Assembly: GCA_012729975.1 (NCBI GenBank) | Contig: JAAYBW010000285.1 | Location: 1 to 51,650 of the forward strand | From: Clostridiales bacterium | GTDB taxonomy: Bacteria; Bacillota; Clostridia; Oscillospirales; Oscillospiraceae | Length of the DNA stretch: 51,650 nucleotides | Direction of reading: 5' to 3' | Shown here: positions 23,629-49,382 of the stretch, piece after piece | Layout: each line of letters opens with the position of its first letter | Numbering within the stretch: the first letter of the stretch is position 1 | Notes under the pieces: model-generated | What the model was told of the DNA's origin: nothing | The model's database searches: none | What the model saw: the letters and a program-made list of their open reading frames with translations, nothing else | Program-made: the position numbers and the translations under genes

Positions 23629-26376
23629 ATGAAGAACACCGGGAAAAAAATCGCCAAAGGCGCCGCAGTCGGCGCCAGAGGCGTTGCCGATATAATTATT
23701 CTGGCCTTAAAAGCCCTTGCAACGGTTTTACTTATTATTCTTACAACAGGCGTTCTTTTCATGTGTATATTTGCGTTTTACGTTAAAAATTACCTGGCAT
23801 CGGACCTTGATGTCGACCTTTATGATTTTTCACTCAACCTCACGAGTACTATTTACTATGAGAATGAAGAAACTTCATCCTGGGATGTTCTGTATTCGTT
23901 ACATGGCAGCGAAAACAGGTATTGGGTCGAATTTGAAGAAATTCCCGAAGATATGCAGCACGCAACGGTGGCTATAGAAGACCAGCGGTTTTACAAACAC
24001 CATGGCGTTGACTGGTACCGAACCGTCGCCGCGTTCGGCAACATGTTCCTTGAGATGAAAGATACATTCGGCGGCTCAACCATAACCCAGCAGCTGATAA
24101 AAAACATCACCCAATATGATGACGTTACCGTTAAGCGCAAATTGCTTGAGATATTCCGCGCTTTGGATTTCGAACGAAAATACAGTAAAGAAGAAATCAT
24201 TGAATGGTACCTCAACACTTCATTCTTCGGTGAAGGCTGTTGGGGTGTCGGTGCGGCAGCAATAGTATATTTTGATAAAGACGCCTCCGAGCTAACGCTC
24301 GCGGAATGCGCAAGCATTGTAGGCATAACCAACAATCCTTCGTTATATGACCCTTACATCAATAAGGAAAACAACAAAAAACGGCAGGAACTTATTTTAT
24401 CTCAAATGCTCAAGCAGGAGTATATCACACTGGCTGAATACGAAGAAGCCATCGCCCAGCCTCTTGTTTTCAAGAGCGGTGCCGCGGATGATGATGTTAC
24501 GGAAGGCGATGCTACCACCTGGTATGTGGATGCCCTTATCGAGGATGTAATAGGCGACCTTATGAAAGCAAAGTGGATATCATACGAAACAGCGGAAACG
24601 CTTTTATATACCGCAGGTTATTCCATATACGCGGTTATAGATCCCGAAGTCCAAGCTATTGTCGATGAGATATATTCCGACAGAGCTAATCTGCCGACAG
24701 GCTATGTACAAAGCGAAACACAGGAGCTTGATTCATCGATTATCATTATCAACCAGCATACCGGTGACATAGTTGCAATGGCCGGCGGTTTGGGAATTAA
24801 AGAAGGCAGCCGCATAATGAACTATGCCACCGACATGCTCCGTCCGCCCGGGTCAACAATCAAGCCGATTGCTTCCTACGGTCCCGCTATGGAGTACGGT
24901 CTTATCAAACCATACACAACATTTGATGACGGCAAGGACGTGAAACTCAAGGGGACAAACTGGTATCCCAACAATGACAACTACAGCTTTTCGGGTCTTG
25001 TAACGGTTAAAAGCGCGCTCCAGTATTCAATTAACACTGTCGCGGCTCAGATTACCGACTTGCTCACACCGACGCTTTCATATGAATTTCTGACCGAAAA
25101 GCTGGGAGTAACAAGCCTCGATCCGGTTCAAGACGTCGCTTACGCTCCTCTTGCTCTCGGTCAGCTCACATACGGTATTTCACCCCGCGAACTCGGAGCC
25201 GCTTACACCGCGCTGGCCAACAACGGAATATACAACGAAACACGAACATATTCGCATATACTCGACCAAAAGGGCAATGTCGTTATCGATAATCAGCCTG
25301 ATTCCAATGCTGCTTTCAGCGAGTTAACGGCTTACTATATGACTGATATGCTGCAAAACGTTGTAAACAGTGGTACGGGATACCGCGCTCGCCTCTCAAA
25401 TATGCCGGTAGCCGGCAAGACAGGTGCTTCCGGGAACTGGAGCGACCGATGGTTTGTCGGTTATACACCCTACTATCTGGGCGTTTGCTGGTGCGGCTAT
25501 GAAACTCCCGAATATATGGGGAGCAGCAACCCGTCTACAACCATGTGGAACCTTGTTATGGAAAAGGTACACGCGAACTACGGATACACCGAATTCCCGG
25601 TACCGGATAATCTCGTTCGCGTTACAGTGTGCATAGACTCGGGCATGCTCGCTTCGGATGCGTGTAAAAACGATGTGCGGGGAAACCACTCTATGACTCT
25701 GCTTGTCCCGATTTCCGAAGCGCCCACCGGCTACTGTGACTGCCATGAGCTTATCAAAGTATGCGGTCTGTCATACGGTTTGCCCTCCGAAGACTGCCCT
25801 GGGGATGAAATTATAGAAGTAGGCATGATAACTCTTGAAGACATTCGTTATCAGGTACTCTGCCCTCCCTATCTTGATGACGATGACAAGCCCATTAATT
25901 ATATTATCGAAGAGCTTAAGCCCTGTAAGGATCATAGGATCGACCCCGCTACAGGCTGGTATATTGACCCGGAGACGGGATATTTAATACACCCGAGAAC
26001 GGGTATGCTCTACGACATGGTCAACAAAAAGGTGTACGATCAGTACAGCGGCTGGGAAGTCGATATTAAAACAGGCATGCTCATACATCCTGACAGCGGT
26101 AAGCTTATCGACCCGTGGACAGGGAAAGAATATATACCTGATGAGAATGCCGGGCAAAATCAGGGCAATGCCATATATACTCCCGACGGTTTTATAGAAG
26201 AGGAACCCGAAATGACTCCCTCTCCGACTCCTACGGATGCTATACCGCGTCCCGAGGACGATCCGGATTACAGTCCGCCTCCGCAAACACCCGAACCAAG
26301 TTCGGTAATAACGTCTCCCACGCCGACTCCCGGCGAGAACAATGATCCCGAGGCCACCGGCAGCCTTTGGTATTGA
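23629..26376 (+). CDS. Class A penicillin-binding protein with 8-residue repeat tail
   Basis: A 915-aa bifunctional peptidoglycan synthase. After a short cytoplasmic tail and one membrane helix (about residues 20-48) comes a GT51 glycosyltransferase domain with catalytic Glu117 (AIEDQRFYKHHGVDW) and FGGSTITQQLIKNI. A transpeptidase domain follows with the active serine in GSTIK (Ser409), SIN (467-469) and KTG (597-599). Residues 771-834 are about eight tandem copies of an 8-residue unit like IDPETGYL. The last 60 residues are Pro/Thr/Ser rich. The tail is unusual and may bind wall or surface polymers. Length exceeds most class A PBPs because of it. Confidence 0.93.
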   Translation: MKNTGKKIAKGAAVGARGVADIIILALKALATVLLIILTTGVLFMCIFAFYVKNYLASDLDVDLYDFSLNLTSTIYYENEETSSWDVLYSLHGSENRYWVEFEEIPEDMQHATVAIEDQRFYKHHGVDWYRTVAAFGNMFLEMKDTFGGSTITQQLIKNITQYDDVTVKRKLLEIFRALDFERKYSKEEIIEWYLNTSFFGEGCWGVGAAAIVYFDKDASELTLAECASIVGITNNPSLYDPYINKENNKKRQELILSQMLKQEYITLAEYEEAIAQPLVFKSGAADDDVTEGDATTWYVDALIEDVIGDLMKAKWISYETAETLLYTAGYSIYAVIDPEVQAIVDEIYSDRANLPTGYVQSETQELDSSIIIINQHTGDIVAMAGGLGIKEGSRIMNYATDMLRPPGSTIKPIASYGPAMEYGLIKPYTTFDDGKDVKLKGTNWYPNNDNYSFSGLVTVKSALQYSINTVAAQITDLLTPTLSYEFLTEKLGVTSLDPVQDVAYAPLALGQLTYGISPRELGAAYTALANNGIYNETRTYSHILDQKGNVVIDNQPDSNAAFSELTAYYMTDMLQNVVNSGTGYRARLSNMPVAGKTGASGNWSDRWFVGYTPYYLGVCWCGYETPEYMGSSNPSTTMWNLVMEKVHANYGYTEFPVPDNLVRVTVCIDSGMLASDACKNDVRGNHSMTLLVPISEAPTGYCDCHELIKVCGLSYGLPSEDCPGDEIIEVGMITLEDIRYQVLCPPYLDDDDKPINYIIEELKPCKDHRIDPATGWYIDPETGYLIHPRTGMLYDMVNKKVYDQYSGWEVDIKTGMLIHPDSGKLIDPWTGKEYIPDENAGQNQGNAIYTPDGFIEEEPEMTPSPTPTDAIPRPEDDPDYSPPPQTPEPSSVITSPTPTPGENNDPEATGSLWY
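25939..26130 (+). repeat. Eight tandem 24-bp units (8-aa repeat) in the PBP tail
   Basis: The encoded units run IDPATGWY, IDPETGYL, IHPRTGML, YDMVNKKV, YDQYSGWE, VDIKTGML, IHPDSGKL and IDPWTGKE. The consensus is hydrophobic-D/H-P-x-T/S-G-x-x with a strict 8-residue period, and units 4 and 5 are the most diverged. The period suits a beta-strand-turn ladder, as in choline-binding-like or beta-helix repeats, which is inference. Confidence 0.8.
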
Positions 26377-48888: not shown

Positions 48889-48915
48889 TACCCCTGCTCG
48901 GGGTTAATGGAATAT

Positions 48916-49306
48916 GGGGGTATAGCTCAGCTGGGAGCGCGAGCTGTACGGTAAACCACCCCAAATAAAATGGGCAAGCGAATGGCATTAAAAATTGAAT
49001 AGTTTCCGCACAACATGGGGGTATAGCTCAGCTGGGAGCGTGAGCTAATCGGTTTACTAGCAATTTACTAAATAGGAAAAACATGGGGGTATAGCTCAGC
49101 TGGGAGCGCCAGCTGTACGGTAAACCACCCCAAAAATCACGGGCGCTTGAATGGCATTGAAAATTGAATAAAAGTTTCCATAAATGGAATAACATGGGGG
49201 TATAGCTCAGCTGGGAGCGCGAGTTAAACAGTAAACCACCCCAAATAAAATGGGCAAGCGAATGGCATTGAAAATTGAATAAATCTTTCTAAAAATGGAA
49301 AAATCT
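48916..49306 (+). repeat. Four tandem truncated tRNA-Ala 5' copies with inserts
   Basis: Copies start at 48916, 49017, 49085 and 49196 (spacing 101, 68, 111 and 111 bp to the next copy or tRNA). Each begins with GGGGGTATAGCTCAGCTGGG and then GAGCG, lacking the AG of the intact GGGAGAGCG. All four share that two-base deletion. Copies 1, 3 and 4 add an insert of about 36 nt (GTAAACCACCCC) and then the anticodon-arm GAATGGCATT, ending TTGAAAATTGAATAA or a near variant. Copy 2 lacks the anticodon part. None has the T arm or 3' acceptor strand. Each D-arm region forms a compensated hairpin, for example AGCTCA/TGAGCT in copy 2 and CAGCTGG/CCAGCTG in copy 3. Confidence 0.9.

Positions 49307-49382
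<76 letters not shown>

Follow-up and report, generated by a model that had tools for sequence, protein, structure and literature searches.

The OCRE domain of eukaryotes consists of five octamers (PMC5127646). In RBM5 it forms a twisted sheet, the exposed tyrosines of which bind the proline-rich motifs of SmN (GMRPPPPGIRG), and the contacts with the peptide are made by Y470, Y479, Y486, Y488 and Y495 (PMC5127646). For class A penicillin-binding proteins (PBPs) of Bacillota, two papers report that disordered C-terminal tails sense gaps in the wall, and PBP1 of C. difficile is described as also having a GTase-associated insertion (PMC13270295, PMC12539705).

We analyzed a stretch of 51,650 nucleotides from an uncultured bacterium of the Clostridiales (Oscillospiraceae; assembly GCA_012729975.1, contig JAAYBW010000285.1), further referred to as the window. 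The gene at 23629-26373 (+ strand, stop codon at 26374-26376) encodes a PBP1-type class A PBP of 915 aa. The first-pass annotation had named it a class A PBP, and we confirmed this, as both Transgly (PF00912, 6e-59) and Transpeptidase (PF00905, 9e-30) exceeded their Pfam cut-offs in one protein with an N-terminal hydrophobic stretch. The score for the TIGR02074 PBP1A family was 505.5 bits, slightly below the cut-off of 508.75. All parts of the protein named here lie on the + strand. The glycosyltransferase domain occupies residues 89-260 (23893-24408) and the transpeptidase domain residues 370-615 (24736-25473); the active-site motifs S409xxK412 (S409TIK), S467xN469 (S467IN) and K597TG were all intact in alignment A5. 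A C-terminal Cys/His module follows at about residues 666-765 (25624-25923), delimited from alignment A5 and the tails of relatives, with conserved residues C668, C679, C703, H706, C712 and C723 (A5). This module is also present in PBPs that lack the repeat described below. A Transgly match was detected exactly once per genome in 19 of the 19 genomes checked (the window genome and 18 relatives, domain-bearing and domain-less), and no second class A PBP was seen in any of them. The single class A PBP gene of G024 is divided between contigs. Elsewhere in the window (48900-49382, + strand) we observed about five tandem copies of the 5' half of tRNA-Ala (GGGGGTATAGCTCAGCTGGGAGCG...) with a period of about 111 bases, located immediately 5' of a complete tRNA-Ala(GGC) gene at 49307-49382.

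Behind the transpeptidase domain, the stretch 25939-26130 (+ strand, residues 771-834) covers exactly eight consecutive octamers, as the first-pass annotation had described: IDPATGWY, IDPETGYL, IHPRTGML, YDMVNKKV, YDQYSGWE, VDIKTGML, IHPDSGKL and IDPWTGKE. When the units are read in the register abcDPxTG, there are nine of them, the ninth partial (residues 769-835): HRIDPATG, WYIDPETG, YLIHPRTG, MLYDMVNK, KVYDQYSG, WEVDIKTG, MLIHPDSG, KLIDPWTG and KEY. C766-K-D-H769 sits between the Cys/His module and the octamers; together, C766xxH769 and the nine units make up the OCRE-like domain (residues 766-835, 25924-26133), delimited with PF17780, the 23-member alignment A3 and AlphaFold2. The octamer repeat is real. 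We counted 21 self-matches at period 8, while shuffled sequences reached at most 14 and none of 20,000 shuffles attained the observed periodicity. The earlier description of the repeat as strict was too strong, since [IVY][DH]PxTGxx was fitted by only 4 of the 8 units (5 of 8 when S is accepted for T, 7 of 8 when the proline is optional), and unit 4 has no TG. We rejected recent tandem duplication at the DNA level, because no more than 7-15 of 24 bases are identical between one 24-mer and the next; a TRF array was also absent there.

The first-pass annotation placed the repeat outside the cell, to which our results agree, and knew of no standard PBP accessory domain containing it. The segment is indeed not a standard one. 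It has, however, a known relative in the OCRE domain (PF17780) of human splicing factors. The OCRE model scored 32.2 bits for the whole window protein and 36.6-38.6 bits for its tail against a curated cut-off of 24.7, so the claim that no known domain matches falls. OCRE was matched best over positions 8-34 of the 52 in the model. In alignment A3, each of the 23 PBP domains matched OCRE at E<=0.1 (best 1.1e-11), and when the A3 profile was compared with PDB sequences, the top two were the OCRE domains of RBM5 (5MF9, E 0.02) and RBM10 (2MXW, E 0.03). Alignment of A3 with the RBM5/RBM10 OCRE stretches by hhalign gave 94.5% probability, which is supportive only, as the template consisted of two sequences. 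Tandem imperfect octamers, characteristic of OCRE, are present (nine units, period 8).

The AlphaFold2 model of the domain, built with ten related sequences (pLDDT 76.5, pTM 0.63), predicted one short strand of 2-3 residues per octamer, that is every 8 residues, in agreement with the ladder of turns proposed earlier. Foldseek comparison of this predicted model with PDB (350,542 chains) placed RBM10 OCRE at rank 1 (E 0.059, prob 0.77) and RBM5 OCRE at rank 9, and no E-value in that comparison was significant. These lines of evidence are concordant yet not fully independent, as the model was built on the same sequences. The full-length AlphaFold model had a pLDDT of 47, too low to show where the domain lies with respect to the active site. 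The aromatic triplets that define OCRE strands were missing from the PBP domain, whose triplets (WYI, YLI, MLY, KVY, WEV, MLI, KLI) consist largely of aliphatic residues and contain roughly one aromatic apiece. In the hhalign register, the RBM5 contact tyrosines Y470, Y479, Y486, Y488 and Y495 correspond to Y785, L794, K801, Y803 and E810, with an aromatic residue in 87%, 48%, 0%, 65% and 0% of sequences, respectively. Whichever strand register was taken, at best 2-3 of the 5 positions of the tyrosine platform that binds poly-proline in RBM5 were mostly aromatic. We give about even odds to the reading of this segment as an extracellular, folded domain of the OCRE type, a meandering single antiparallel sheet of fixed size, this estimate being joint with the docking and spacer role discussed below. 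Our search of the literature for the OCRE domain together with penicillin-binding proteins found no paper with that combination; as far as searched, an OCRE-like domain on a PBP has no earlier report.

Other matches did not hold. A galactose-binding lectin fold was hit in PDB by the single sequence only (E 0.01), and OCRE displaced it in the profile search; Pro_Al_protease, Plectin and other Pfam matches were short and weak. Among the Pfam and NCBIfam matches, taken up to an E of 10, there were no PASTA, choline-binding, LysM or SPOR domains. These results bear on the possibility that the aromatics of the sheet, W777, Y795 and W809, grip either glycan strands or some secondary polymer of the wall and so fix the PBP to the mature wall, in effect like PASTA or choline-binding repeats. 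W777 and Y795 are invariant in 23/23 sequences and W809 is W in 17/23, the alternation of side chains suggests that they share one face, and the wall enzyme carries the domain outside the cell. However, no wall-binding family was matched in Pfam or NCBIfam, and the galactose-lectin hits were weak and did not lead the profile search; we regard binding of a wall polymer as rather unlikely. Among the ligands that the first-pass annotation had offered, a partner would agree better with the example of OCRE than wall polymer or metal.

A profile made from five domains (A1) was scanned against 401 genomes of the family, belonging to 106 genera. It matched in 26 genomes and 10 genera, and the match lay within a PBP in 24 genomes of eight genera (g1, g3, g8, g12, g25, g163, g169, g175). 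The first-pass annotation had named lack of conservation in close relatives as a refutation; the domain is conserved in a clade. In G020 and G490 the octamers were found in proteins other than the PBP. PBP hits in named genomes (L071-L079) came from MAGs of Oscillospiraceae, Ruminococcaceae and Clostridiales, and the titles of several point to rumen or gut as the source. Matches of two octamers in R. flavefaciens (L080-L083; <=45% identity, another enzyme-like secreted protein without PBP context) were judged to be due to chance. In relatives that lack the OCRE-like domain, the Cys/His module is retained or the protein stops before it, and the tail is of low complexity only. In a maximum likelihood tree of 42 PBPs (23 with the domain and 19 without), the domain-bearing proteins formed one group, requiring one change, with support of 87/52, while the fork that takes in one domain-less sister had support of 99/92. 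Since the domain-bearing PBPs group together, the tree is most simply read as a single gain within one Oscillospiraceae-like family, the exact branch of which is not firm.

The number of units was identical in all 23 sequences of A3, and variation was limited to indels of 1-2 residues and, in part of the sequences, to degeneration of the last unit. C766, H769, D772, G776, W777, L786, P789, Y795, G816 and G824 were invariant. We estimated substitution rates by the Nei-Gojobori method in 12 close pairs. In most pairs the domain and the transpeptidase region had similar dN (e.g. 0.03 vs 0.024; 0.12 vs 0.11), with dS of about 0.3-1.7, while the tail usually evolved faster (dN 0.2-0.7 in most pairs). 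The exception was genus g169, in which the domain had a higher dN (0.14-0.23) and the conserved part was the tail with 'PTDAIPQPEDDP'. This motif is also found in the window protein ('PTDAIPxPEDDPxY'), g169 being the sister genus. By these comparisons the OCRE-like domain is under purifying selection, in contrast to the larger part of the Pro/Thr tail. It is of fixed size and probably folded, not a variable repeat.

Two of the invariant residues, C766 and H769, directly precede or begin unit 1, and more conserved Cys and His residues lie upstream. The segment could therefore be a folding cap, which stabilises the preceding Cys/His module (perhaps a metal site) and docks nothing. The CxxH at the end of the module is, however, also found in PBPs without the repeat, which argues that the module is complete without it, and we find such a cap very unlikely.

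The domain is followed in nearly all members by a Pro/aromatic segment (RPPGYGP, RPPTYGP, LPPGFV, NPVVIP in A3; YTPDGF in the window). In the window this segment, AIYTPDGFIEEEP, occupies residues 848-860 (26170-26208, A3), and the model confidence over it is intermediate, not lowest (pLDDT about 61-66). Then comes a low-complexity tail rich in Pro, Thr and Glu, presumably disordered (26209-26364), and the protein ends with LWY (26365-26373; alignments A2, A5). The Pro/Thr tail reported in the first-pass annotation is thus present, with 17 P and 9 T among the last 69 residues. Three members (L061-L063) stop soon after the domain and have no long Pro-rich tail. Aromatic C-terminal ends after a variable tail (LWY, LFF, LWF, MWF) were observed in the window PBP and in L071, L072, L073 and L078; such an end of the domain-bearing PBPs might be a short linear motif.

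We propose that the nine octamers, each contributing a short beta strand and a DPxTG-type turn, would build one antiparallel meander, which in the sole class A PBP was inserted behind the Cys/His module and ahead of the disordered Pro/Thr tail. The domain would attach the synthase to a wall-side partner, or fold back onto the following Pro/aromatic segment, and docking would then set the position of enzyme and tail inside the wall. A docking and spacer module between the enzyme and the disordered tail is our best reading, with chances that we judge roughly balanced; docking itself and the identity of the ligand are what we infer. The Pro/aromatic segment and the Pro-rich tail directly behind the domain speak for docking, and we favour a module for which this segment may be a folding partner or a ligand. 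Against it are the replacement of the aromatic OCRE triplets, the few contact tyrosines kept, the non-significant E-values of the fold search and the members L061-L063, which carry the domain without a long Pro-rich tail. Because the tyrosine platform of RBM5 is only partly kept, poly-proline binding by the PBP domain is offered here as a hypothesis. The further idea that an extracellular OCRE-type domain recognises its own RPPGYGP-like segment or tail, or that of a partner, and so forms a poly-proline switch which gates or positions the sole class A PBP, is decidedly improbable in our view.

The same arrangement could also be that of a passive spacer, a stiff rod without ligand which sets the distance of the disordered tail from the catalytic domains. 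The length of the rod is fixed and the tail varies, and for PBP1 of B. subtilis a disordered C-terminal tail is reported to sense wall gaps (PMC13270295, PMC12539705, which cite Brunet et al. 2022). However, particular side chains (W777, L786, Y795) are conserved, beyond the turns alone, and the nearly tail-less L061-L063 nevertheless have the domain. We think it rather unlikely that the domain is a spacer only. For the preferred docking and spacer module, by analogy, the location of a folded domain ahead of the tail and behind the enzyme is compatible with a part in positioning that tail.

OCRE matches were rare in the phylum (6 of 399 genomes). Octamers of this kind were found in envelope proteins of G020, G128 and G490. 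In G020, a type IV pilus gene cluster contains a very long open frame of 1246 aa (L090, 3644-7381), in which OCRE matches two stretches (69.9 bits) and an N-terminal stretch is PilM-like, and in G128 such a cluster contains an open frame of 1603 aa (L091, 6762-11570). These long frames appear, from their sequence, to be another envelope use of OCRE-like octamers. The protein of G490 (L092, 762-3101) is of the Peptidase_M15/VanY type with an SH3_3 domain and an insert of four DPETG-like octamers. In other Bacillota, the small putative lipoproteins L085 and L086 have an OCRE-like stretch (GYIYDEQTGRYTNKTTGVWYIV, PF17780 over the cut-off) and a LysM-looking C-terminal part. As unrelated envelope proteins within the family also contain OCRE-like octamers, repeats of this kind may come about easily, which counts against our preferred reading. 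An origin by local amplification of a DPxTG turn is no less likely than inheritance from the eukaryotic OCRE domain.

In Bacillota, class A PBPs are known to be controlled through disordered tails outside the cell and through partner proteins. At the same place, the sole class A PBP of a whole lineage gained a small, putatively folded domain and retained it under selection. If the domain docks a partner or the protein's own tail, it would represent a new control point in the synthesis of the wall, and bacteria would be using an OCRE-like sheet outside the cell. Convergence would show the ease with which DPxTG octamers form such a sheet.

In comparison with known systems, the other envelope proteins of Oscillospirales (the pilus-cluster proteins of G020 and G128 and the M15-type protein of G490) share DPETG-type octamers, are secreted or membrane proteins and come from the same family or order; they differ in host protein, have fewer or scattered octamers and are not orthologous to the PBP domain. 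The OCRE domains of RBM5, RBM6 and RBM10 have in common with it the tandem imperfect octamers, the D-P-x-[TS]-G turns and one short antiparallel strand per octamer, which is predicted in the PBP. The PBP domain is, however, extracellular on a bacterial cell-wall synthase, while OCRE of the RBM proteins is part of a nuclear splicing factor; it has nine octamers and not five, its strands are mixed aliphatic and aromatic in place of tyrosine triplets, and the contact tyrosines are only partly kept. With PBP1 of B. subtilis and C. difficile (PMC13270295, PMC12539705), the window protein shares the plan of a class A PBP with an extracellular disordered C-terminal tail. In those proteins a disordered region is described at the C-terminus, whereas in the window PBP a putatively folded octamer domain precedes the tail.
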